A stretch of 64,000 bases of DNA. Origin: Xylona heveae TC161. Lineage: Eukaryota > Ascomycota > Xylonomycetes > Xylonales > Xylonaceae. The position numbers and the translations under genes were made by a program. The notes under the pieces are model-generated. The model searched no databases, had not been told where the DNA came from, and saw only the letters and a program-made list of their open reading frames with translations. Below, in pieces: positions 14,726 through 48,351 of the stretch. The DNA lies in contig NW_017264202.1 of NCBI RefSeq assembly GCF_001619985.1, positions 248,001-312,000 on the forward strand, given 5' to 3'. The first letter of the stretch is position 1. Every line of letters starts with the position of its first letter.

Positions 14726-16407
14726 TCAATCAATCTTTTGGCCCTTCATTGGTGACGGCGAACGAGACAATGGAGCCTGGGACTCATCCGCAGTCTCAAT
14801 GGGCGGTGTGAGGCTCTTTTCCCACTCGCTCATCAGGGTAGACGCTGTTTTCGTGAGATTACTTGGCGTAAGGCTGACTAAGGACGGCCATGGAATTTCT
14901 TCTCGCTTTCTCGGCGTCGAGTGCTGCCTTGATAGTCGGTTGGCAAGGTCAAATGAACTACGTGGCCTTTAAATCAGTCGACACTCCTTACCTCTTGGCG
15001 CAGGGAATTTTACCTCGTACTTGTCCTGGGACTGCTGGCCATTGTTGGCGGAGAAGTTTCACGCTCAGAGGTCGAGGTAAAGCTACTCCGTCGGCTTTTG
15101 CGGGCGGGCGATGGCGAGTCCCAATTGTCCCAGCCGTCGTCGACGTCTGGTTTGGGGGGAGTTTTCCTCCCAGCTTCAGGATCACTCGTAGGCACCGTAG
15201 TGGGCTCGTTCTTCAAGGGGGACGTGGAATTTTTGCGGTCAAAATAGACGCCATTGTCTTTCCAAAAGTCGCCGCCAACGTCAACAAGAGTAGTGTCGTG
15301 GCCATCGTCGTGGGACGCTCTTGCCCGAGAACGCGAACGTGACCGATCAGCATCCCGAGCCTGCCGAACAGGGCTTTTGCCATGGCTTCGCAAGCTGGCA
15401 TTACTCCCCTGTCGTCTGGCCAAGTGCGGTGGGGGTGCGAGCTGTTGTGATCCACGATGACTGGTACCGTTAACTCCTTCATCGCCAACCGTGGCTTGGC
15501 GAAGGTCTTCGATAAATGTCCAGAAGCCTTCCCGAAAATCCACCGCCATTTGCTTTCCGGTTTTGATCAGCGCATCGCGCGTGGGATCACGCGTTTGGGA
15601 ATTAACGGTGTACTCGGACGACCGTTGACCGCTGAGGGGATACATAAAGTCGTCCGTCTCGGATTCGGGTTGAGAATTCGCCGCGGGATTTCGGTCCGTC
15701 GACAGTAAAGAGAGAGTCCTTGCATGGCGTGAAGGTGAAAAGACCTTTCTTTGGCCACGACGAGATGCCTGAAACATGGCTCTTCTTCGTTCCAACTCTC
15801 GGCTCTGTCGACCATGGTCGTCTTGACCGTCGAGACTGGGTCGTCCAGGTGAGCCAGAGAGAGAGCGCATGGGTTCAAAGTGACGAATCTCGCTACGCTT
15901 CTTGGAAGCTTCGTGGACTGCCCATTGCCTCTTGAATTTCTCAAGCTCAGTCTCGGCGCGACTGAGCTCCTCCTTGAGTTCGAGTACCCGCCTCTCCTGG
16001 GCAGCAAGGACAGTCAGAAAATTGGCGGACTCTGTAGGCGAGAGCACGGCAGATTCTTCTGGAGATTCAGCAGGTGGTGTGGATGGACTGATCGCAACGG
16101 AGCTGGATTGGGTGAGCCTGGTATGGCCGAATCGAGGTGATGGCTGAATGGGAAAGCTTAAAGACACCCGGTTACCCTTTCGACTGGGCACTGAGGTGGG
16201 AATCACCTGCTGTGCATTCATCGACTTGTGTGAAGGTGACGATGGGGTCGGCGACTTTGGTTCTGATGAAGGTGCACCTATACGTTCTGCTGGTGCGGGC
16301 ATCACGGGACTGGTCTCGCCCACCGAAGACAGCACTGCTTTGACGCTGGCAGGATCGACACTCGATGACACCCGCTTAGCGTCAGGTCTAGTCAATTCGT
16401 CGGCCAT
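14726..16407 (-). CDS. DUF4048-type coiled-coil protein, function unknown
   Basis: Two exons: 16407-15014 and 14927-14726 (531 aa), with an 86-bp intron (GTAAAA...TCAAG). The start is the first ATG, giving MADELTRPDAKRV; the open frame upstream of it has no ATG. The first 150 residues are Ser/Pro-rich. A coiled coil of about 45 residues follows (LTVLAAQERRVLELKEEL onward), then a Ser/Arg-rich linker, a conserved helix with FREGFWTFIEDLRQATVGDE, and a disordered C-terminus with WDNWDSPSP. This layout fits the fungal DUF4048 proteins. The short second exon ends SPSPMKGQKID. No enzymatic motif; possibly a scaffold (inference only). Confidence 0.75.
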
Positions 16408-16985: not shown

Positions 16986-17559
16986 TAGCTGTTACTAATA
17001 CGGCAGCTGAATTGCTCAATGGCTTGTATAACTTTCAAATTTCAAATTCAAGATGTCATCTATTACAAAATCTCTGCAGCGAATAATTGAACCGTTGGAA
17101 AGGCTTCTATCTGTGAGAAGATGGTTGGACCGTTGGATTGGTTCAACCCCAGAACACGTGGATGGTCATCCAAAATCCCACTGCGCATATTTTGACCCAG
17201 AGAGAACCCAAACGCCAGCATGGATTAAAAATAATGATCAGAGAGAAGCTTCAACTTTTCTTTTACAGGGCTGCCTTGAAATTCATTGCACAATCCTCCA
17301 TCTTCTTCCCATATACATACTCAAACATTATCGCAATGTTGCGATACTCGTGGTGTTTTTGGATGAGGCTTTTCTCATCCGTTTCTGTCTCCTTCTTTTG
17401 GTATCTTCCTTCACATCCGTCCTCTCTTTTTTGAGCTCTCTGAAGTTCTCCTCCGTCCGTCTCTGGAGGAGAAGGACGAATTCTTGAGGACTTTCGTGGC
17501 ATGCCTCGTTCCTGCTAGCCACTCTCTTTTGTTTCCACCACCTCTGTTAACATGGTTTA

Positions 17560-18440
17560 AAAAATCCTGCTTGAAGCCATATCACTCACCCTCTCTAGGG
17601 TCTGAAGTATATCCTTGCAGTCGGCCTTGAGGCCTACCCGCCGCATATCAGCTTCTCGAAGACTACTGACAAACTTCACCCACTTGGTGGATGAGTGGTC
17701 GACTTTGGCCTTTCCTTTTCGTCCTTGGGAAAGGTCTTCTTGTAGCTTTTTAGCTACATGGACCAAAATTTTTCCCTAAGCAAACTGTAAAACGAATTGT
17801 CTCGTTTGCTCTTGTCCTTTCTGATGCCGATTCCAATGAGACCTCAGTGCTTTATTCCCAAGGTCCTGGGCAGAGATCTTCATCTATTGAGCGGCCATCT
17901 CCTTTGTGGAGCGCTGCCATCGTTGCAACTTTGTCATTGTTTCTTGCAGTTTCTCGATGGCGTTTGCTCCTGCTTTCAATGGTTAATATTTATTTAGCTG
18001 AATATCACCGAAAAAGGCTCACTATTTTCTATTCCCCTTTAGGATTTTCACTTTATCATTTTTCCTCAGTCTTTTTCAGATAGCCCCGAATAAGTATCCG
18101 TGGATTTTCATCTCCGCCGTGTTATTGACGAGATACACAGAGACGCAGAAAGTGCAAATCGGCCACGACCATCGTCTCCGGATTCGTCAATTCGTTTTCA
18201 AGTCCCGTTATGTCTTCATGCCCATGCAGGGTAGAGTTGCAATGAATAATTCGCAGAAATCAGCGAAAGAATAGACAATAGTCGTTCTGATGTAGAAAGT
18301 AGAACTTAAAGAGGCCGATGCAGATGAATATTCTATAAAGTACCGATATGGAGTAAGAAGCTCTTTCTGTCGAGACGTCCTATATTCGGCCGAGGGTCTT
18401 GGACTCTTGGATAGCATAGCGGGGGAAAATATCGAAGAAA
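17560..18440 (-). pseudogene. decayed coiled-coil host gene, family unknown
   Basis: On the minus strand, about 150 codons between roughly 17,995 and 17,575 read as a coherent, helix-rich protein in one frame (for example KLQETMTKLQRWQ, SAQDLGNKALRSHWNRHQ, KADCKDILQTLER) but with about two internal breaks. A GTGAGT donor follows the last coherent codon. Further upstream, up to about 18,440, weaker coding-like stretches occur in more than one frame (LENELTNPETMVVADLHFLRL). I do not recognise the family. It sits in the same accessory island as the intact coiled-coil/PD-(D/E)XK pair, but I see no clear sequence similarity to the intact coiled-coil gene. Confidence 0.5.
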
Positions 18441-18654
18441 GCGATGAGCCGTGTCTTTATACTGCCAGTTACTGATGAGTAAATGTTTTGATTGAATCCA
18501 ACGCGTGATGGTGGTATGTACGTAAACAAGTATTCATGGGTGCATGGTGAAGCAGGAAGGTGGTTAGTAACTTGGTTGACGAGAGGGTTCGACAGATAGA
18601 GAAAGAGCGACAGATATGATTAACTCCAGATGTTCACTTTCTGGCTAAAGGCTC

Positions 18655-18770
18655 GCTGAGAATTTTGACGCCAGTGCTTAAAATGGACCAAAAATCTAAT
18701 GCGGAGGGGATTGTGAAAAAGCTCGAGGATATGAGATCCTACGCGACTTCAATAGATATTTATATCAAGC
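18655..18770 (+). pseudogene. relic of the 3' end of the PD-(D/E)XK gene
   Basis: This stretch is clearly related to 21555-21680, the last 35 or so codons and stop region of the intact gene at 21135-21653. Shared blocks include TTTTGACGCC-GTGCT, GACCAAAAA-CT-ATGCGGAG and GAGGATATGA-ATCCTACGC. Frame-disrupting differences are present and no upstream part of the gene remains in readable form, so this is a decayed fragment. It lies just downstream of the 3' end of the intact coiled-coil gene, consistent with an old tandem duplication of the pair. Confidence 0.75.
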
Positions 18771-18849
18771 AACCAGAGGACGCCCTTTGTTCAGGAAGGA
18801 TATACGTTACAGAAGCAAGCGACAATGTCAATTAAGCCTTTCAATCAAA

Positions 18850-20139
18850 TCACAGATCCTTGAGAAAGTCCGCGGCAACATCGTCCACGCTTCTGCCATA
18901 TGCAAAGCGGAACAATTCGGCACAGTGATTAGAAAATGACGTGTCTTGGAGCAAATTGTGCCACCTTTCTGGCAGACGTTCCGCGCCCAACTGTTTAGCA
19001 AAACGAGCGTCTTTTTTTTGATGCTCCTCGTCTTTCTTTCGGTGGACCAACAGCACTGCAAATTCCCAACTGCTTGTTCCAGTTCGCGAAGGTTTGATGC
19101 TCTGGATACAGTGACTACTGTGTCAATTTACCTAACTTACTGTGTGCGATGTATTGATGTTTGAATCATTTTGGGATGGTTTACTCACCTGGCAAGGATG
19201 CATAAAGTTTGCAAAAAAGCTCATGGGGAATCCAATTTTCTCGGCCTCGTCCTCTGTCAGTTGCTCGACCAGCCTCAAATCGCGCATCACTGTATGGGTT
19301 TCCGACTCTGTTTCGTCTCCAAAATATTCATCCAATGCTGTATCGGTGTCTTGTGCTGCTGATTGACCTGTCTCCCCTTTGAACTCTTGCTCGACAAGCT
19401 TTTCCCAGACTTTTGCCATGACATCGAGAAAGAGATTGTTCCTCCCATCAAGGAGCCGCGGTACACCATCGATTTGTCGCTTTATTCTCAAATCATTGCG
19501 TTCTTTTCGTAGTTCTTCAATTTCCTCTGTCACATTCCTATTTGCTTTTTGAATATCTTTGTTGAATCCAATTTCTCTCTTGAAGGACTGAGATTCTGCC
19601 CGGAAAGACTCAAATTCTGCTCGNNNNNNNNNNNNNNNNNNNNNNNNNNNNNNNNNNNNNNNNNNNNNNNNNNNNNNNNNNNNNNNNNNNNNNNNNNNNN
19701 NNNNNNNNNNNNNNNNNNNNNNNNNNNNNNNNNNNNNNNNNNNNNNNNNNNNNNNNNNNNNNNNNNNNNNNNNNNNNNGACTCAAATTCTGCTCGAGATT
19801 CTGCCCGGAAAGACTCAAATTCTGCTCGGGATTTTGCCCGGAGAGACTCAAATTCTGCTCGAGATTCTGCCCGTAGAGACTCAAATTCTGTCCGAGTAGA
19901 CTCGGATTCTCTTCGACTAAGTTCAATCTCTCTTCGAGTAATCTCAAATTCTTTTTTCAGATCGGCAATTTGTTCATCTATCCTAGAGAGAAATTAGTTA
20001 TAGTTCTGTTGAGGGAAAATGATTTAGCTTCTTGCTCTTCTGTTCGCCTAGCCATGTCTTCCATCATTTTCTCCACCACGGATTCCAGCTGTTTGTATTG
20101 GTCAATGGCATCACCTGTGTGAGACTGCTGGGGCGCCAT
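18850..20139 (-). CDS. coiled-coil protein with 33-bp (11-residue) repeats, function unknown; interrupted by an assembly gap
   Basis: Three exons by hand splicing: 20139-20036, 19982-19189, 19101-18850. The first intron (53 bp) is GC-AG: donor GCAAGA, acceptor CTCTCTAG, branch-like ACTAAT. The second is 87 bp, GTGAGT...TATCCAG. The N-terminus (MAPQQSHTGDAIDQYK) leads into a long coiled coil (EEIDEQIADLKKEFEITRRE) and then 11-residue repeats of the form FESFRAESRAE. A 155-N gap falls inside the repeats, so true length and frame across the gap are unknown. After the repeats comes a conserved-looking globular part (IDGVPRLLDGRNNLFLDVMA, then acidic DEYFGDETESE) and a C-terminal exon with WHNLLQDTSFSNHCAELFRF. 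No catalytic motif. About 1 kb separates its start from the divergent PD-(D/E)XK gene. I do not recognise the family. Confidence 0.7.
19624..19778. other. assembly gap (155 N) inside the repeat array
   Basis: A run of N flanked on both sides by the same 33-bp repeat. The stated length is not informative about the number of missing repeat units. Confidence 0.99.
19779..19910 (-). repeat. 33-bp tandem repeats in the coiled-coil gene
   Basis: Roughly four imperfect copies with a 33-bp period right of the gap, and part of another to its left (about 19,590-19,623). They encode an 11-residue unit (consensus AEFES-RAESR), which fits a hendecad coiled coil. The assembly probably collapsed or broke here because of the repeat. 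Confidence 0.85.
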
Positions 20140-20539
20140 GATGTTAGGTGAACGTCCAGTCGATGCAAAAATAAAACAAGTAATTATAATAAGATTTTTT
20201 TTGTCCTTGTGTTGGATGCAGTCTTGGTGTTATAATCAATAGCTTGTCCTCTGGTTGTAAAGTTACAACCGATGTAGGATTGTCGTTACCTTTATATGTG
20301 TCCTTTGGCCAGATATCGATTTCTTTTCCCCTTTTCTGACTATTAAATGGGCTGGAAATGGTCAAGCTTTGCACAGTCTCTAAGCCCGATAAAAGGAGAA
20401 CTTGGGTATAAAAGACTATGACTCTTCTGCTAGTTGCGTTGATAATGATACACATATTCGCTTGCCAATAAAGTACCGCCCCATGTTAACCCCAGATTTC
20501 TACACTTGGCCATATGCTCGCTAATTTGAAGTGACTAGT

Positions 20540-20655
20540 CTATCCTGGGTTTAGCAAATCTAACTTGGCGCGACGATTCTGACGGAGAGCTCAGGGTCCA
20601 CGTAACGACTTGTTATAGTCCCACCATGACTTTGTCGCGGCAGAAATCACTTTTG
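20540..20655. repeat. diverged duplicate of an upstream segment (copy B)
   Basis: Partner of 16870-16985, in the same orientation, upstream of the intact PD-(D/E)XK gene. The shared blocks are separated by small insertions and deletions. Confidence 0.5.
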
Positions 20656-20869
20656 ATTTTGGCTATGGCTATGAATTGCATATCATGGTACCTTATGTGT
20701 TCGCCATAATCCAGATACTCATCTATCATGGCTCGTCACTCGAAATGAGGATAGCTGTTCAATAGTTGCCCAAGAAAATGCATTGATGTGTAGACTGTGT
20801 AACACAAACCAAGCGCTTAGAGAGCCAATGCGACGTAGGAAAGGAGTCAACCCTGGTCCTCGATATGGG

Positions 20870-20879
20870 TATATAAAAG
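20870..20879 (+). promoter_or_regulatory. TATA box of the PD-(D/E)XK gene
   Basis: TATATAAAAG, a near-perfect TATA element, about 256 bp upstream of the start codon. It implies a leader of about 220 nt and a regulated rather than housekeeping promoter (inference). Confidence 0.55.
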
Positions 20880-21134
20880 GCCAGAAGAATGTTCCCCGCT
20901 TCAAAGAGAAAGGGAACAAACCCTTCGTCAATACACCAGTCATTCGGCCTTCAAAAATACACTGTCCGTTCATTTCACTAGTCATCATTAATTGGGTGAA
21001 ATATCGTAAGTTGCTGCTCATCGCCAGTTCATCTCTTCCAAATAAAATGCCATTCACTATGTCCGAGCTAAACGCAAATTCATCCCAAGGCTCACCAGCG
21101 TCCAGCTGTCAGATACAAATCTGAACCAAAAAAA

Positions 21135-21653
21135 ATGTCATACCTCGAGCTCACGGGTCTTCAGGGTTGCATCGAATGTGTTACCCCAGACTCTCCACGC
21201 CAAAAGGTCAAAACGCTCTGGTCGAATCTACTCTCTTATCATTTCCCCAGCACGGGCTATTACACCGTGATCAAACCGGCATCCCACAAAATCGATGAAA
21301 CGACCAAAGATTGGCCAGATCTCACAGTGGTCAAGGTCATAAGGGGCGAGAAAGTGCCACGCGGGAACCTCGTCATGGTTGAATGCAAGCGCAGAGAGCT
21401 TGATGTGCCCTCTGAATGGGCTAAGCTTGAGCAGCAGGAAACTCAGCAGATGATTATAGACAAGATGAGAGCGACCTGGAATGACGAAGCCAAAAGGCTT
21501 TACGCGGCGATCGCGATTGGACTGAGTGTCAGGTTTTATGCATTGAATGGCGACGAGTTCAGGGTTTTGACGCCGGTGCTGAAGGTAGACCAAAAACCTG
21601 ATGCGGAGCGGATTGTGAAAGTGGTTGAGGATATGAAATCCTACGCTGCTTGA
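21135..21653 (+). CDS. small PD-(D/E)XK nuclease-fold protein, function unknown
   Basis: Intronless, 172 aa, start ATG at 21135 with A-rich upstream context. The pattern WPDLTVV (Asp62) followed 20 residues later by VMVECKRRE (Glu83, Lys85) is the classical PD-(D/E)XK catalytic motif, placed between a helix containing KVKTLWSNLL and a helical C-terminus (EWAKLEQQETQQMIIDKMRA). The last third (AIAIGLSVRFYALNGDEFRV) looks like two strands plus a helix. The full motif set suggests a metal-binding nuclease fold, but activity is not shown. Such small proteins occur scattered in accessory regions of filamentous fungi (general impression, not a database result). It is divergent from the coiled-coil gene; a decayed copy of its 3' end lies at 18655-18770. 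Confidence 0.75.
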   Translation: MSYLELTGLQGCIECVTPDSPRQKVKTLWSNLLSYHFPSTGYYTVIKPASHKIDETTKDWPDLTVVKVIRGEKVPRGNLVMVECKRRELDVPSEWAKLEQQETQQMIIDKMRATWNDEAKRLYAAIAIGLSVRFYALNGDEFRVLTPVLKVDQKPDAERIVKVVEDMKSYAA

Positions 21654-22700
21654 ATTAGATATCTATAATCAGCAAATAGGGGATGTAATTTGTCGGATTG
21701 TCCAAATTGTGTATACTTGGAAAGTATAAATCGTGTCAGGGTGCCGGGAAATGGCCAGCCGATATTGAGGGGATAGCAGCCCGGCTTTAAACACTTCACA
21801 GACAGGACCACCGAATCATAGAAATCAGCTCAAGTTGATCCGATCGTCCCCGTCGATCTCCTTCTAATCCCTCTAACAATTAGTTAGCAATTCCACCGAA
21901 GCCACAGCGACAATCGCGCCAATCTCGGGGAAATTTTAGCGAGTCCTTGGCGAGGATTCTCCACTCGCTCGTACCTGTGATCGACTTCACAACCGAGACA
22001 GTTACTCCTTCCGGTTAAGTCGCCACGGGAAGCGCTTAACTAACCCGTGACGAATATACTTGCTCAAACCCTCTCACTGCCTTCTCTATCAAGCACTTCA
22101 CGTTTTTGACATCTCGTCCCTACCAAAAACTCTTTACCTACTCGATATGATACAGAACTATCGGATTTCAAGTGACTTTCGCGCCCGTGGAATGGTTGCA
22201 GGAAGGCATGTATGTCTCGGAAACTAATAAAGTGCGCAGAATGCCCCACTGCCTATCGACTAGCAGGGCAAACAGCAATATGTGGGGACCTGGATGGCTC
22301 TGCTCTGTTATCGGTCCTCAGACCATACTCCGTAGTCCGTATATGATATTGCGAAATCCGAATTCCGCCATGGCTGCAAAACAGGGACCCTGGTGATCTT
22401 TTAAAGTAATACCTGCTGCCCTGTCTAGTCGGTGTAACATACTACACTTTCTCCTTGTCGTGCTATACGCGTCTGTCTTCTCTCGTCTTTATATCTAGCA
22501 CGGCAACACCACTGGAGTTCACTTCATACTCATACCACCCTTTCTTTTGATCGTACTCTAACCATCTATTGATCTCATTCTCCGTCATCTCCAAACGTCT
22601 TGCGACTATTGCATTGTCTACGCTCTACTGCATATTCCCAACTTAGCATCCTCATTCTCATTACAAGTTACACCACCTTTACCATTCAACAACAACAATA
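21654..22700. other. intergenic region
   Basis: About 1 kb with no convincing coding sequence. The last 250 bp is pyrimidine-rich and ends in CAACAACAACAATA before the next start codon, typical of a fungal promoter and leader. Confidence 0.5.
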
Positions 22701-24170: not shown

Positions 24171-25014
24171 TTACATAGCAGGCTTGAACGTCTTGCTTGA
24201 GTCGATACCATGCTTGTATCTCTCCTCAGCAACGGCCCAGTTAATAACGCGCCAAATCTGGCTAACGTAACCGCCCTTGTTGTTCAGGTACTGTTAGACG
24301 TATTAGTTTTCTGTCCTAGATATCATCATGTCCCTTCAGGGTCATAACTGAAGCATACCTGCAAATAGTATGCATGCTCCCACATGTCAACTCCAAAAAT
24401 GGGAACCTCTGGCGCCGTCACTGGATCCTGGTCCTTGGTAGTCGTGATGTCGAGCTTGCCTCCATTGCCACGGCTCACGAGCCAGCCCCAGCCGCTACCC
24501 TGAAGACCAAGCAGGGTGTCGCTAAATGTATCTTTGAACGCCTGCTCTGAGCCCCAGCGGGAAACAATGGCCTTGTGCAGGGTGGGCGCAGCAGTCTCGA
24601 GCTTGCTCGCATCAGAGTCCGGCGGGGTCAAGTTCTCCCAGAATAGAGAGTGATTAATGTGTCCACCGCCGTTGAACTTGATCTTTTGCAGCAGCGACAC
24701 GAGGGCACTAATATCGTTGGACTGGGTGGCCTTGGCTTGGCTTGCTAATGCGGCGTTGAGATTGTTGACATAGGTCTGGTGATGCTTCTTGTGGTGGAGG
24801 TCCATAATCTGCTGAGAGATGACGGGTTCGAGGGCCTTGATTCACGCATTTCTCGTTAGCAAGAAGACTTTAGGGATGATCCATGCTGTTCGTTAAGGCA
24901 AGAGAGTAGCAAAGCTGAAACACACAAGGTACAAGGAAAGGATATGAGGACGATACGTACATTGTAGGCATAAGGAAGCGGGGGCAAGGTGTAGGGTCCA
25001 GTAGAAGCAGCCAT
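24171..25014 (-). CDS. manganese superoxide dismutase, probably cytosolic
   Basis: Converts superoxide to oxygen and hydrogen peroxide. Three exons: 25014-24961, 24835-24359, 24290-24171 (216 aa), with introns of 125 and 68 bp. Metal ligands are visible: His in the LHHKKHHQTYVNNLN block, His in GGHINHSLFWENL, and Asp and His in DMWEHAYYLQYLNNKGGY. The MnSOD signature DMWEHAYY is complete and spans the exon 2/3 boundary region. With the start at MAASTGPYTLPPLPYAYN there is no mitochondrial presequence, as in the cytosolic MnSOD group of fungi (Candida SOD3-like). However, the frame stays open upstream to an ATG at 25587 that would add 191 residues with a hydrophobic signal-like stretch; I favour the short form because its start matches the family. 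Confidence 0.9.
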
Positions 25015-30192: not shown

Positions 30193-31844
30193 CTAAAGCT
30201 CCTCAACTTGAACACGCAGCATTCTTGGATATAGAGGCCCCGCCTAAGGAATTTTTGTTAGCAGCGATTCAATAAAAGACGGGCACAGACCAGCAAAACT
30301 TACCGGAGTCATTCGCTCTGGCCATGTAGGGTCAAGTTTCCATTTAAGCCTCTGAATCAGATAGAAGAGCGTGACGCGAGCTTCGAGAATGGCGAGCTTC
30401 TCTCCCAGGCAAGCTCTACGTCCTCCATGAAACGAAGTAAATTCAGCTTTGCTCTTTGCTCTTCGATACTTGTTCGCAATTTCTGGCATTGTCCCTCCCC
30501 ATCTTTCTGGTAGAAACTCATTCGCATCGAGCCCCCAGCATGTGGCATCCCGACCTGTGGCATACGCATGATATCCAACATATGTGCCCTTTGGAATAAT
30601 AATCTCATTTCCAAGAGCCACCGTCCGAGTCGTCTTTCTATTTATGAGTTGAGATATCGGAGGAAACAAGCGAAGGGCCTCGTATATGACAGATGTAAGA
30701 TATGGCATATTTTTGAACATATCATGGGATGGGTCATCCTGCCCTGAGCACAAGATCTCTCTGCGAAGCTTTTCTTGAATTTCCTGCGGAGAACGAGATG
30801 GTGAGTTTCTATTCATGTGTCTCAAATCACATATATGACCTACTTGATGCTTGGCCAGTAGATAGATTAGGGTAGAAAGCAAGAGTTGCGGATTCTCATG
30901 TCCTGCCACAAAAGATATGACCATATTGTCTTGAAATTGCTTTTCTCTAAGTACGCTCTTTTTTCGTGCAGAAATGAGTCTACAACCTAGGTTATCGCTC
31001 TCAGTAGAGCAGCAATTTCCAGCATGGCTCTTTTGTACCATTTTACAGAACTCATCCCTGAAAACTTGAACGGTCCTCCGGGCCTTTTTGCGGCTCGGAA
31101 TGGGCAAGGCATCGAGAAAGGGAAAGGTTAGAAATATCGGTTTGAAAATTTCCTTTTTAACAGCCATTTGTAATAGATGCACATCAGCATCGGGTTTTTC
31201 CATAGTCTTTGCACATCCGTATTAGCAATGAATCAATGATATAGCATGAACCTGGTCAATGGAAATACCTGAAAATCCGCGGAGAAAACCGCCTTTCCCA
31301 AGTTTGCAACAGTATACCGCTGGAGCAGAGGCGTGACTAGGACTGCACCATCTCTGTTGTTCGTCTCCTTCAGAATACGGATAAGAAGAAGCGCATTCTC
31401 ACAAAATGATGATATGTCAAATTGTTTCTGCAACCCTGGTTTTAGGACCTGTTGATAAAGTCTCCAGTCGTCACCGTGTGCACTAATGATATTGTCGCCA
31501 GTGTAATCTGCCAGCACGCTGTATGGAATCTTTTTCTGATTACCAGATTTGGCATATGTCTTCTCGTCTTTGAAGATTTCCGCCATATATTCTGGCTTTT
31601 GGAGTAATATGTTCCATCGGGCGCCGAAAAAAATCTTGACGGCCCCGTGCGTTGCTAGAGGCTCTTCTAGATACTCCTTGAATATCTTTTCTTGATCGAC
31701 ATCTTTGAAAAGCGGCAGAAGGGTGACGTAAAATGGAACAGTTGGGATGTTTCTAGGAAAGTTTCGAGGCGGAAAAAAAGTCCAAAAATACAATTTTGTC
31801 ACTGCAATAAAACAGATTGCCGAGACACATAAGAAGGCAAACAT
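30193..31844 (-). CDS. DIT2: cytochrome P450, CYP56 / Dit2-like
   Basis: Heme monooxygenase; yeast Dit2 (CYP56) couples two N-formyl-tyrosines into N,N'-bisformyl dityrosine. Four exons: 31844-31269, 31206-30844, 30783-30304, 30243-30193 (489 aa, the length of yeast Dit2). Introns are 62, 60 and 60 bp; the 60-bp intron at 30784-30843 keeps the frame and would be missed if read through. An N-terminal membrane anchor covers residues 1-22. Motifs: helix C block NIISAHGDDWRLYQQVLKPG, I-helix AGHEN in place of the usual AG-D/E-T, EALR of the ExxR pair, PERW, and heme-binding FHGGRRACLGEK. The tiny last exon adds AGPLYPRMLRVQVEEL. Divergent from the DIT1-like gene across 882 bp, the same arrangement as DIT1-DIT2 in yeast. 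Confidence 0.9.
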
Positions 31845-32726
31845 AATGCGTACAACTAACCTCTGTAGTCTTCAAAGGACATGCAAAAACAAAAGAATGA
31901 TACATTTCATTTCAGCTTAAACAAATATAAAACCCCATTGCGCCCTCGTGTCAGCTGAGACCGATTCTGCGCTTGTCAATCGAAATCATCCACCTCGGCA
32001 GAGTAAGACCGAATCCCCACTCCGCCAGGAACAACAACGTCTAGACCTAGATGATCCAATGGTCGGATTCATTTCTTCCTTCGCATTGAATAAGGCTGCT
32101 CGGCGAGTATGGTAGAAATCGGAGGAACTAAAGGGTGGATAACATAAGGTAAATATTCATGGGCCTTCTGAGAAATGGACGTGCGATGCTAACTTATTAG
32201 CTGCTTGCTCGCGTGGGCCGCCAATACGGCCCACTTAAGGCATCACGGATGCTTCTCCCCACGTGCGTTAGTTCTAACTCAATTCCCTCCCTTCTCCTCC
32301 CTATTATTCCTGCGATTGCGCCATTGCTGAATGATCCGCCTGACCGTGCGCGTGGAATTATGTTATCTCATAACTTGATGGGATTTGTTAGTCTTCGCCA
32401 GCTACTGTAGAGTAGTGGATGAAGCATTCTTCATTCTCTTGGCGTCATATCTGTTCTTGAGGGCGTCCAACAACGGAGTCAATGCAACCCTACCCCTGTT
32501 GCTGTTCGGGATCCGAAATGAAATTGCGCAAACCCGCTCAGCATGAATATTCCACCCTGCACAAGATGTTTCTGGGCGACTTTCATGATTATGCAATGTT
32601 TTCTTGGCTATATGCCAAATTATTTCGAGTGATGATTCTATCCGTGAATAATTGGCTTTGATAGTCCTCCATTCACAATGGCATGCTTCTCGTTGTTCAT
32701 TTCGCTGATGCAAAGGCATTCAATAT
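31845..32726. promoter_or_regulatory. divergent promoter of the DIT2-like and DIT1-like genes
   Basis: An 882-bp head-to-head spacer. It contains one CACGTG box at about 32,259. I found no obvious TTTGTG-type mid-sporulation element in my reading. Shared control of both genes is likely from the layout alone. Confidence 0.5.
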
Positions 32727-34509
32727 ATGGATTTTCTCTCTTCGAGTTGCTCTCCTGTGTCGGTGTATCATGAGATACACGCGATCTATATTCGAGATGC
32801 CGGTGGCCAATCGCTGAAGGTCCTTCGAGGAAGACAGGAGCCAGTTGAGAGAGTATTGGCCTTTATCTTCCGCAATCATCCATGGTCGTCCAGCAGCGTC
32901 AGCCTCGCGACGAAGAGGCCCAAGCTAGACCCTTGCTCGCGCGACTTCTCCAGTGATGATCAGTGGGTCAAGGATTGCATTGCGCAATCATGCAACACAA
33001 ACGGCGAGGCATTGACTGCAGTTTCAGGATTTACTTTAAGGCTGCAAGAGGTCCCTCGATTCTCAGATGGAATTATTTTCGGTCTTCTCAGTGTGTTCCC
33101 ACAAGAGTCAGGCATCAGTCCGCGATTTCGGCAGTGGTTCACCTCTTTGGTCGTCAACGGAGCAAGGATCCCAATTCACGATTTACGGTTTCAAGAAAAT
33201 ATTGACACAAATGCAAGATATCTCAGTTCAATTATCTGTGGAATTTTCGATCAAAGCCTCAGAAACATTTCTCGCGACGACCAATGGGAATGTGGAGGAC
33301 GTGCGTTGTTCGAGGATCTAGCCTATCGATTTATTTCCCGAGGAGCAACAGTCGAATTTTGCTTGCCAGCCTTTCCCTGCAAATCTTCAAATACTGACAA
33401 GGTTACCGGATATCTACCTGACAAGGGAGAGGAGATTGCTCTCAAAAACTTAATCTCGTTCCTCCGCAGCGTTCGGAAAATATATGAGCCGGGCGCGAAA
33501 CTTTGGGTCATCAGTGACGGGCATGTGTTCAGCGATTGCAGTGAGTTTCTCATGCTTTACCAAGCCAACTTTCAGGACATCGCACTGTCTAGAAGGATAT
33601 ATAGCTAATAATACATTCTTAGTCGGCGTGGATGATATTATCGTAGACAAGTACAACGAAGTTCTAAAGTCCCTTTGCGCAAATATTCTCGAAAATGAAG
33701 ACGCACTCTTCAAAGATTGCATACAATTCTGTTCACTAAAGGAGTTGCTGTTCCGAGACGAACTTCGTGATAGTCAATTTGACCGAAGTGTTCTTTCAGA
33801 TATTACTGTGTCTCATTTCCTGGGGACAACATTATCCCCCGACTCAGAATTATGTCGAAAAATTCTACTCGCAGGATGCCAGGTCGACAGCAACGAGTTG
33901 CGTGCGGCGATTGAAGATCAGGATCCAGCGAGACTAGCACTCTATCGAGGTTTTTCCAAATTTATGCTGGAAGATTTGTCTCTGCATTCCGCAAGCGAGA
34001 CACTGAGCAAAAGTCAAAGGAAGAAAATGAGCTCCAAAATTGCTTTTGAGATGATCAAGGTGCGCGGCTTGTCACCATTTCCGGATCTATTTACTTACTT
34101 CCTTAGCGCAACCATGCATATTCAAATCTTGTCGAGCTCTTGTTCCCCCAACACATTCGACTATCGATACACGCGTAAGTGATATCTCGCTTGGTAAGTG
34201 GTTCAAATCGGCTTACAAAATAGACATGACAACCGCGGACCCAAATTCGGAATTCGACTGCTAGGAAAGAATGCCGCCAAACTGGAAAGATTTGACGGGA
34301 AATTTCTCTCGTCAACCAGCGACGATCTACTCCACATACCTACACCATGGCATAACTGCGTGTTTCAGATTGAAGGCGGATCAACATATTATATTGCAAA
34401 GTCGCGAGTCATACGAGAGATTATGAGGACCGGGCAATACAAAGGCGTCTGGACCGAGAGTCAGAATGGACAAGGGTATTTTTACCTTGCACCTTGCGAG
34501 CATTTGTAA
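32727..34509 (+). CDS. DIT1: DIT1-like isocyanide synthase (pyoverdine/dityrosine biosynthesis family)
   Basis: Family members act on tyrosine or tryptophan: yeast Dit1 makes the formyl-tyrosine-type precursor of spore-wall dityrosine, and bacterial PvcA/IsnA and fungal relatives make isocyanides. Four exons: 32727-33540, 33623-34059, 34107-34174, 34224-34509 (534 aa, against 536 in yeast Dit1). Introns are 82, 47 and 49 bp. Conserved blocks: FCLPAFPCKSSNTDKVTG, GEEIALKNL, PGAKLWVISDGHVFSD joined by splicing to IGVDD, RNHAYSNLVELLFPQHIRLS in the 68-nt third exon, and HDNRGPKFGIRLL at the fourth. The SISDG-type signature and the catalytic-region HDN...PKFGIRL are intact. Start chosen as the first ATG of the open frame. 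With the P450 and MFS genes it forms a complete synthesis/coupling/export set. Confidence 0.9.
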
Positions 34510-36649: not shown

Positions 36650-36659
36650 NNNNNNNNNN
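36650..36659. other. assembly gap (10 N) in a poly-T tract
   Basis: Ten N flanked by T runs on both sides, just after the DJ-1/PfpI stop codon. Probably an unresolved homopolymer. Confidence 0.98.
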
Positions 36660-38635: not shown

Positions 38636-40726
38636 CTAAAATGCTGGCCAGCGATTCTGCAGACCTTCAGCCCATCGCCCATACAGGACTTCTGCGAGCT
38701 GCTTGGTATGTTCCATGCCCGGTACAGAATCTGCAGGAAATGTCGACTGGCTATCTGTCCAGGGATCGGAGTCAGAGACTTGAGAATTTTGCCGCCGTCT
38801 TGCATTTTTCAAGTGCGGATTATTCTGCGCCAAGACGAGCTTTGGCTTCTGAGGTGTAGGAGGAGCAGCAGGTATTAAAGATGCCGAGAGTCTAGGGTCA
38901 CTGAATCCCATAATTAGCATTGAACGGAAAAGACAATCCAAGGAGAAATGAAATACCTCTGAATCTTCTCCATCATCAGCTTCAGCAACTGATATTCTCC
39001 CTCTGGATCTAGCGCATCCATGGCGCTCCAAGCGTCGGCCGCACGTGACAATGCATCACGCCTTGCAGTGTCTGATGTCTGCGCATGCATCTCTTGGAAA
39101 GCAGGATCAATGGCTTTCGAAAATGCTCTCCGACCGAGTAAACCCTCCTTCGTAACGCTCTCTACCAAAGGCGGGCGGTTCTCATCAGTGCCCAAGACGG
39201 ATCCGTCTGGAGATATATTAGGTGAATTATCGGACACTCGCTTGAATTGGCGAATGGTAGACCCGCTGTTGCCAAAATTTATTGCCGGAACCAGAGGCTG
39301 TTTCTGTTGACTAGACCGGCGTGATGGCGATGGTGACATTATTTGAACGTTTGATGATTTTCGCCGTCCCTTGTCTCGGCGTGCTGTGGAAGGTGGTGAC
39401 GGTGTTGGAGCAGCATTGAGGTCCAGTCGGCTTAGCGCTCGATCTGGAGTATCTTGCGAATTATCCGATATCAAAGATAACTGCCTCCGTCGCTGCGTTT
39501 GCTTCAATGGACTTATCGTAGGTGCCTTGACTGTATCAAACACCCACTCATCGTCGTCCTCATCATGCGCTCCCTTTGGAGCTAACGTGGCCCTGCGAAA
39601 CATTAGCACATGCACCCCTCAGTCCCTTCCGACGACAAATTTGACTGACATATTCTCTTCGTAAAACTTTGGATGAGGCGTCCTGCCTCTGGCACTTTCC
39701 CATTCTTGTCGCCGGACAATCAGCTCCTGCAGTGCCTCCACCTTGCCAGCATTGCGAATAAACCGATGGCGCAAAAGATCCTTGGCAGTCGGCCTTCGAT
39801 CCGGATCTTTTACTAAACAAGAAGCGATAAAGTCCTTGAAATCTCGACTATAGTTATTTCCTTGTAGTCTTGGAGCCGGTGCCTTTGGAATCAAGAAGAG
39901 GACCTTCATTGGGTGGGTGCCTGCGTTGGGAGGCTCGCCGTTAATCAATTCCATTGCCGTTATTCCCAGCGACCAAATATCCGCCTTGAAGTCATAGCCC
40001 GCCTGCTGAATAACCTCTGGTGCCATCCAAAATGGTGTGCCAACAAAAGTGTTTCGCTGCGACTTGATATTCGTGAGTTGCGCGGCGACGCCAAAATCGG
40101 CCAGCTTGACCTTCCCTGATTGTGCGAGTAAAATGTTGGCGGCCTTGATGTCTCTGTGTATCTTGCCTTCCTTGTGAAGATAGTCCAATCCCAGTAATAA
40201 TTCGCGACAGATGATTGCAATGTGTCCTTCATTAAACGGTCCCGGTTTCAGCTGCAATTGTCAGCACGGCAAACACAAAAAACCAATTCGCCATTATTGT
40301 TGGGGGCGTACCAAATCCAAGCATGAACCCCCACCTAGATATTCCATTACAATCCATAGCTTATGTCCACGTAGAAAACAAGTCTTGTATTGCGTGACGA
40401 ACGGGCTTGCGCATGTACTCAGGACAGATATTTCCTGCTGAATCTCCTGTATGTCGTCTTCGCTCGATTCGAGGTCAATCTATCCCAGTTAGCTTCACTT
40501 GCCATCCTCTCTTCTTTCCCAATGGCAATCGCACATGTTTAATTGCGACCATTTCCCCAGTCGCCTTGTCTATTGCTTTGTACACAACTCCAAAACTTCC
40601 ACCTAATTCGCATCATCAGTATTTACTCCAGTGTGCCAATGACTTTCCTATAGTGTCTTCCAATCACTCACTTCCAAGCTCCTCCAACATCTGATAATGA
40701 TTTGCCAAGGCTCCTTCGTCCGCCAT
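38636..40726 (-). CDS. Ste20/germinal-centre-type serine/threonine kinase, Sid1/SepL-like
   Basis: Probably the kinase of the septation initiation network (Sid1; SepL in Aspergillus). Proposed exons: 40726-40672, 40602-40535, 40479-40312, 40251-39668, 39592-38957, 38900-38636 (591 aa). Kinase motifs: Gly loop split by intron 1 and restored as [12 protein letters not shown], Lys in [41 protein letters not shown]. The C-terminal part has [13 protein letters not shown], a Ser/Pro/Arg-rich linker, [15 protein letters not shown] (joined across the last intron), and a terminal helix with [19 protein letters not shown], as in fungal Sid1 proteins. The exon 4/5 junction is uncertain: the only GT donor that keeps frame with the good acceptor at 39593 is a weak GTTTTA at 39667, which would drop a conserved-looking FYEENM. 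Confidence 0.85.
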
Positions 40727-46193: not shown

Positions 46194-46941
46194 TTTGAGC
46201 CACAAATAGGCAGATGCAACTGAGGGGCATGGCGGGGAATTTTTCTCAAGAGTCACCGGTAAATTTGAGACGGCGAGCGAAAGGGCGGTTTTTCGGGATC
46301 AACCTTTTTCCGTTTCCATCACCCGTCTGTTCCCGAATAGGGAAAGTGGGGTAGTTCGACGATGAAAGCTAGTCCCAAATCGGAGCATTATTCCGTATCG
46401 CTCCGACCCCTTCCAGATGAAAGGCTTCAAGTAAACATGCAAGGATGGCATCGATATATGCATCGCCTCTACATTATTATTGGGCAGCGTTATGCAAGAA
46501 GAAAGCCTTGATAAGACCAATATTGCATACAGGTATTTGATGCTAGGAGTAGAAGTGTACGTACTCCCGTAGTACATTGTAGTGAGATGGCTCCGTTTAT
46601 CAAGGCGTTAGCCGAGCTGTGGGAAGCTCTCATACATGTTCTTAGCCTCGTACTCTTACTACCTTCACTGAGTATGGGGAAAGATACCCCTCTCAAATGT
46701 CAGCCAGCCATCTCGTATGGCATCCTTGTCATAACCATGTAGCAGGACGGGCGCAGGTGCAAGGATAATATTGCTAACGCTACAGGCACCCACCCAGCCA
46801 TGTAACCTGCCACAGCCTCCTCGCAACAATGAACCCCCTTAAAAGTGCATCCACCCCGCAAGTCGTAGAGTTTACATAGGCTAGATATTGCTTCCTCATC
46901 ATAACAGTCACCACAACAATTAATAGGTGAATAGAATCAAT
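46194..46941. other. divergent promoter region of ADE6 and the AAA ATPase gene
   Basis: About 750 bp between diverging genes. Short open frames only; nothing else seen. Confidence 0.45.
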
Positions 46942-48351
46942 ATGTATAACCAAGATAACCTTGCAATCCGGGTATCCTCATCCCAAGACCTTCCATCGGC
47001 AGAGTTCCTTCATCATTCATCAGCTCAACGTGTCAACACCGACGTCATCATCTTCCAGGCAATCAGATCGCAATATCCTGGAAAACAAGTAATCATCTGC
47101 CCAGAAAGAAATTGCAACCTCATCCAATATGCTGCAAGAGGACTTGCCAGCGCAGTTCCAATTGATGATGCAAAGGAGCCGTCCCTGACGTCTCTCAAAT
47201 GGCGTCTTTATGTGCCGCCAAGCCGTCGACTTGATGGCGATTCTGGTCAAATTATTGACGGTTTGCATTTCGGCAAATTTTTATATTCTTGGAATGGGCA
47301 CGAGTTCATCCTCTACTTTGTCGATGGCAGAGATGGTCAAGAAGCTTATCCCACAACCAGACATAACTACATAGTCGGTGATGAAAATGCAATCAACCAA
47401 CTGATCAATACGGTCGGGAAATTTACAAATGAACTCCACAACGAGATATGGGTGTTCGAACAGAGCATGTGGCGCAAGGATGCGGATCTGTGGCGAAGCG
47501 TCCATAAGGCGTCGTGGGACGACGTCATTCTTGACGCTGATATGAAGAAAGCCATCATTACCGATGCTCGCCGATTCTTCGACTCTAGGTCCACATATGC
47601 TCAGCTTCGCGTGCCCTGGAAGAGAGGTCTTATTTACTACGGTCCACCGGGTAATGGAAAGACCATTTCCATCAAGGCTATGATGCACGATCTGTACAAC
47701 AGAAAGCCTGCTGTGCCTACATTATACGTCAAGACTCTATCTGGGTAAGCCGACAATTTGGTGATCAGCATTACGCTACCGCATTACTGATGAATGTGAT
47801 TTAGATATTTGCCTCCAGCTATGGCGCTCGCCGAAATCTTCTCCAAGGCAAGGCAAGAGGCACCCTGTTTCTTGGTGTTTGAAGACCTGGATAGTATCGT
47901 CTCAGACAGTGTCCGAAGCTTCTTTTTGAATGAGGTGGACGGGTTGTCAAGCAATGATGGAATCCTGATGGTAGGTAGCACGAACCATCTTGAGCGTCTC
48001 GACCCGGGTATCTCCAAGCGGCCGAGTCGCTTTGACAGGAAGTACTTGTTTCCGAACCCCAATGAAGCGGAGCGAGTAAAATATTGCGAGTATTGGCAGC
48101 GGAAACTCTCTGACAACAAGGACATTGACTTCCCGCATGTGCTGTGCAAAGCAATTGCCAAAATTACCGACGACTTCAGTTTTGCTTATATCCAGGAAGC
48201 ATTCGTAGCTGCTTTGCTTTCTATTGCGGCGGCCGATGGGGAAACGGTGACTTTCGTGGAAGAGGATGAGCTGAACAAATACATTCTCTGGCGGGAGATC
48301 AAGAAACAGGTTAAGATATTGCGTGATGACCTTGACAAGTCGGGCAATTAG
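46942..48351 (+). CDS. AAA+ ATPase, Bcs1-like group
   Basis: Two exons: 46942-47744 and 47805-48351 (449 aa), with a 60-bp intron (GTAAGC...TTTAG). The frame is open slightly upstream, but the first ATG is 46942. The N-terminal 215 residues are not similar to anything I recognise. The C-terminal half is one AAA module: LIYYGPPGNGKTISIKAMM (Walker A), CFLVFEDLDSIV (Walker B with Glu-Asp), GSTNHLERLDPGISKRPSRF (sensor 1 and arginine-finger region), and a small helical lid. Relatives are common in filamentous fungi as Bcs1-like or orphan AAA proteins. There is no N-terminal transmembrane segment as in mitochondrial Bcs1, so a role in complex III assembly is unlikely. Confidence 0.85.

Follow-up and report, generated by a model that had tools for sequence, protein, structure and literature searches.

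Two divergently transcribed genes of the 64-kb window (the whole stretch of DNA analyzed here), one coding for a coiled-coil protein with an 11-residue repeat and the other for a small protein with a PD-(D/E)XK motif, are accompanied by a decayed relative of each, and the repeat of the coiled-coil gene is interrupted by an assembly gap. The reading that we favor, with about even confidence, is that they are fast-evolving fungal orphans making up an accessory pair, subject to birth-and-death turnover. The small protein would most likely have a PD-(D/E)XK-type fold and cut or bind nucleic acid, and the coiled-coil protein would be a self-associating, rod-like molecule whose length can change by gain or loss of 33-bp units. 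Both genes read outward from a common 1-kb control region, and their regulation is presumably shared. The relatives of both genes, decayed just upstream with matching order and strands, would be the remains of a duplication of the pair. As for a joint role, the likeliest is that the two would work as a dispensable module, with the coiled-coil protein serving as scaffold or restraint for its nuclease-like partner. The genes are a real pair, possibly inherited together, and a role in conflict is possible; the relics and the pair fit fast-turnover or selfish genes, without constituting proof of either. If the two families do not recur as divergent neighbors, the locus would reflect the ordinary fast turnover of orphan genes.

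The start codons of the two genes are 995 bp apart, in agreement with the 1-kb promoter region of the original prediction, and both the small protein with its PD-(D/E)XK motif and the divergent coiled-coil protein with its 11-residue repeat were confirmed. The intergenic region (20140–21134), common to both genes, contains TATA-like sites at 20872 and 20407 on the forward strand and at 20296 on the reverse strand, all of them consensus matches without a chance control. The pair is real. The own-frame codon preference is the best of six for the nuclease-motif gene (0.108, next 0.054), for exon 1 of the coiled-coil gene (0.202, next 0.016), and for its exons 2b and 3 together (0.137, next 0.047), as scored with a codon table derived from six long ORFs in the window, partial genes among them. 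For 516-nt stretches sampled every 171 nt along the window, with one reading each, the 99th percentile is likewise 0.108, the score of the nuclease-motif gene. A 25-codon frame starting with ATG (21047–21124), itself the 3′ portion of the ORF at 20786–21124, stops 10 bases short of the nuclease-motif start codon. Should transcription begin 3′ of the TATA-like site at 20872, this frame would constitute an upstream ORF, which could hold back translation.

The nuclease-motif gene (21135–21653, forward strand) is a single exon coding for 172 amino acids, with PD at residues 61–62 and ECK at residues 83–85, a spacing of 20 residues. Among the 140 ORFs of the 64-kb window with at least 100 amino acids (stop to stop), it is the only one with the strict motif in a hydrophobic strand context, and when the protein is shuffled 20,000 times this arrangement arises in 0.6% of the shuffles. 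For the loose motif, the figures are nine of these 140 ORFs and 12.7% of the shuffles. The rarity of the strict motif is suggestive of a nuclease, short of proof. The PD, the 20-residue spacing, and the ECK are shared with the PD-(D/E)XK phosphodiesterase superfamily, but the protein matches no Pfam family of this superfamily and its fold is putative. The searches of Pfam, NCBIfam, PHROGs, and PADLOC gave no match to a PD-(D/E)XK family, the Pfam negative for the superfamily extending to E values of 10, with HMMER filters dropping most matches above about 0.1. The PDB sequence search returned no relevant entry, and no homologs were found in viral contigs, bacterial and archaeal genome contigs, or plasmids by scans that catch close relatives only. 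Two AlphaFold2 models have low confidence (mean pLDDT 37.1 and 34.8). The first contains strands at residues 63–69, after PD, and 80–86, around ECK, which would fit the PD-(D/E)XK fold, though the confidence is too low; in the second the strand after PD is lost and only residues 80–83 are kept. The protein owes its nuclease label to the motif, and the presumed fold has no curated family or solved structure behind it.

The coiled-coil gene (18850–20139, reverse strand) has three exons: 20139–20036, 19982–19189, which includes the gap, and 19101–18850, which ends with the stop codon. Of the two introns, the second (87 nt) is of the usual GT-AG type. The first (53 nt) lacks a GT donor that could serve, and its removal needs GC-AG splicing; it keeps the frame and contains a CTAAT branch-like site, with a weak donor. 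A variant of this intron whose GT donor would lie at AGGTGATG was rejected because, as read by eye, it results in an in-frame stop. Because the GC-AG donor is weak, the 5′ end of the gene is a model only. The description of the gene as intact needs to be qualified for this reason and because part of exon 2 is unread. Exon 2b gave no homolog in viral contigs, in a scan that catches close relatives only. Several matches from the searches with the pair were set aside: CCDC90-like on the coiled coil (E = 0.00053), which is below the family cut-off and expected for such a structure; MreB-like_C (E = 0.0048), also below its cut-off; Golgin_A5, Elongin_A, HEAT_UF, and DUF7653, which are weak Pfam matches (E from 0.05 to 0.56); and matches in NCBIfam, PHROGs, and PDB, all with E above 0.02.

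The repeat of this gene is a 33-bp array (19590–19890, reverse strand) coding for RAESRAEFES(L/F). Read by eye, the F, L/F, and S of the unit fall at a 3-4-4 spacing, as in hendecad coiled coils, and among the periods tested (7, 11, 15, and 18), 11 gives the strongest hydrophobic periodicity, level with 15. TRF identifies a period of 33 with 92% matches at 19779–19890, and self-matches of the repeat are also found beyond the gap, at 19590–19623. Three near-identical units precede the gap (91%–94% alike in DNA), which makes the array look recent, and a fourth, older unit is 52%–58% like the other three. The gap itself is drawn as 155 N (19624–19778) and lies inside the array. With this count the frame of the coiled coil is shifted. 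The first 33 bases past the gap fit the register of the array at 33 of 33 positions only if the gap is 16 mod 33, and a gap of this size also restores the reading frame. Hence, 155 N is probably an estimate of the gap size. The repeat that had been called variable thus contains an assembly gap, and the number of its units is not readable from the sequence. The original prediction held that the coiled-coil protein varies in length and that its repeat is fast-changing. Neither variation in length nor rapid change across strains is borne out by an array broken by a gap in one sequence only, as a single gapped sequence cannot show change, and much of the interest that was first seen in the locus rests on a repeat of unreadable length.

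Read from left to right, the relics and genes lie in the order coiled-coil relic (reverse strand), nuclease-motif relic (forward), coiled-coil gene (reverse), and nuclease-motif gene (forward), with two instances of the divergent arrangement. The nuclease-motif relic (18570–18772, forward strand) corresponds to the 3′ end of the gene, that is, to residues 114–172 plus about 20 nt beyond the stop position. Its DNA identity with the gene is 82% over 112 columns (18663–18772 versus 21565–21675), and a frameshift-tolerant alignment places residues 114–172 at 18570–18748 with a score of 110 (E about 3e-7). Differences affect 15 of the 86 aligned coding bases (7 at the first, 2 at the second, and 6 at the third codon position), with four synonymous and eight nonsynonymous codons. 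The first 113 residues have no copy above background within the window.

The coiled-coil relic (17278–17492, reverse strand) is the last exon of a relative of the coiled-coil gene, with a similarity split over two reading frames. In a frameshift-tolerant scan of both strands with the last exon, it is, besides the exon itself, the only region above background (score 77, next best 46; E about 8.5e-5). The E values, which are for both strands, were fitted with the help of random sequences (40, first-order Markov, 64 kb each), whose maximal scores range between 38 and 54 for the coiled-coil exon and between 43 and 65 for the nuclease-motif query. Residues 49–79 are significant on their own by shuffling (p = 0.0008–0.0015), and the first half alone is not (p = 0.22). 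Among the 1603 stop-to-stop peptides of at least 25 amino acids, leaving out those that overlap the gene's own strand, the relic piece is the best match to the last exon by itself (48, runner-up 42) but only the third best to exons 2b and 3 together, without frameshifts (48, after 55 and 49). The protein identity in the best piece is 29%, and blastn gives no match for this relic.

A neighboring region (17560–17973, reverse strand) is helical and coding-like, with two stops and a GTGAGT donor-like site near its end, and is possibly an upstream exon of the coiled-coil relic, or else part of another gene. Its similarity is weak (anchored p = 0.015, local p = 0.049), and a scan of the window with exon 2 of the intact gene revealed no relic and nothing at 17560–17973. 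Its pieces have no notable match in Pfam, nor its longest piece in PDB, and no further copies of this possible exon or of the coiled-coil N-terminus were found above background in the window. Weak Pfam matches on relic pieces, such as HTH_91 (E = 0.023), were dismissed. Repeat-induced point mutation (RIP) was discarded as the cause of decay, as there is no RIP signal between 12 and 28 kb, where the composite index is negative in 16 of 16 1-kb bins. Hence, the decayed relative of the nuclease-motif gene announced by the original prediction is indeed present nearby, and the turnover is broader than was claimed, as it includes a relic of the coiled-coil gene.

Because the relics match the intact pair in order and strands, the divergent pair may have been duplicated and inherited as a unit. 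The unequal divergence of the relics argues against one simple duplication event: with one at 82% identity in DNA and the other at 29% in protein, a joint duplication would need unequal rates or gene conversion. Either the coiled-coil family evolves far faster, or conversion has refreshed the ends of the nuclease-motif genes, or the relics have separate origins. The same inequality favors the main competitor of the accessory pair, a reading that we regard as distinctly less probable but still substantial, in which the genes are two unrelated orphan neighbors, each with its own local duplicate, having neither a joint function nor a role in conflict. Unrelated neighbors are also favored by the abundance, in filamentous fungi, of short ORFs specific to a lineage. 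Against this stands the arrangement of the relics, since those of the two families adjoin each other, ordered and oriented as in the intact pair.

Among the matches listed in a literature search, the papers on SPOK are the closest to the pair. The N-terminal coiled coil of the Podospora SPOK proteins corresponds to a variable-length repeat, the PD-(D/E)XK domain with its catalytic lysine is required for killing, the kinase domain is required for resistance, a pseudogene relative is known, and Vogan et al. describe close relatives in one Eurotiomycete (PMC6660238). A resistance-dead SPOK1 disrupts DNA in Escherichia coli, and in yeast it elicits a DNA-damage response (PMC9972908). SPOK (Podospora anserina; FuSpok in Fusarium) and the pair are alike in having a coiled coil with repeats, a PD-(D/E)XK motif, and decayed relatives, and in being fungal. 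They differ in that SPOK is one polypeptide with coiled coil, PD-(D/E)XK, and kinase domains, whereas the pair consists of two divergent genes, with no kinase in a Pfam scan of the pieces of both (the sequence outside the gap). SPOK also has a QxxxY downstream of the catalytic lysine, which is absent after the ECK of the nuclease-motif protein, where the segment SEWAKLEQQETQQMIIDKM has a Q but no Q-x3-Y. With two genes, no kinase found, and no QxxxY, the pair is not a SPOK as judged by the published features of SPOK, though it might work like one. The claim that no named system fits holds only in part: SPOK shares the ingredients of the pair, though in a single polypeptide with a kinase.

These shared ingredients are the basis for a third reading, which we consider unlikely, of the pair as a two-gene poison–antidote or spore-killer-like element, in which the nuclease-like protein would be the poison and the coiled coil its restrainer, that is, a SPOK-like set split over two genes. 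It draws on the union in SPOK of a repeat-bearing coiled coil with a PD-(D/E)XK domain needed for killing (PMC6660238), on the DNA damage attributed to resistance-dead SPOK1 (PMC9972908), and on the presence in the window of the same two ingredients together with relics. It is weakened by the lack of QxxxY after ECK and by the absence from the scanned pieces, gap excluded, of the kinase that in SPOK provides resistance. The nearest kinase domain is in an ordinary Pkinase ORF (39622–40260), about 18 kb away, and nothing links it to the pair. Marginally less probable again is a fungal killer/protector system of two genes with a stand-alone PD-(D/E)XK poison and a coiled-coil partner, specificity and protection being given by repeat length; it would be the split counterpart of SPOK, with the coiled coil replacing the kinase, kept and lost as a divergent unit. 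If the two families were to recur as divergent neighbors, they would represent a fungal conflict module paralleling the parts of SPOK, of which no description appeared among the papers listed in our literature searches, and such a module would offer a testable case of killing and protection becoming fused or split.

The HNWD allorecognition genes (het-e/het-r), whose WD40 repeats sit in an NLR-type protein, provide another comparison. Their tandem units are nearly identical in DNA and undergo concerted evolution (PMC2873952), and near-identical tandem units are also found in the coiled-coil gene. The two differ in that the HNWD repeats are WD40 repeats, whereas the repeat of the pair is a coiled-coil hendecad with no NTPase domain found. 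Finally, it is very improbable that the nuclease-motif gene is what decay has left of a larger protein of the CR/CRN-type REase lineage, either an effector or one derived from a transposon: an origin from bacterial transposons has been put forward for SPOK-class nuclease domains (PMC12693581, with reference to Zhang et al. 2016), but the gene is a compact ORF with its own start, a TATA-like site upstream, and coding bias, no transposase domain occurs in the pieces scanned (other small surrounding ORFs left out), and the sole inverted pair reported between 15 and 26 kb (29 nt, 72%, at 15750 and 22099) is taken as chance.

Elsewhere in the window, a cytochrome P450 ORF (30247–31221, reverse strand) adjoins two ORFs with DIT1_PvcA domains on the forward strand (E = 5e-33 and 3.3e-23), and this region (30244–34182) is possibly a biosynthetic cluster of the isocyanide type. 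A weak MFS match, below the cut-off, was obtained for an ORF at 27.4 kb, a DJ-1/PfpI gene is found at 35.8 kb, and a second assembly gap of 10 N lies at 36650–36659. The window looks like DNA of a filamentous fungus, with its spliced genes and a Mn-superoxide dismutase ORF (24326–24805, reverse strand) whose best PDB sequence match is 1kkc, the enzyme of Aspergillus fumigatus. An AAA ATPase gene (46927–48351) has the Pfam AAA domain on its second ORF (E = 1.6e-11), with none on the first, and presumably resembles the BCS1-type ATPases.
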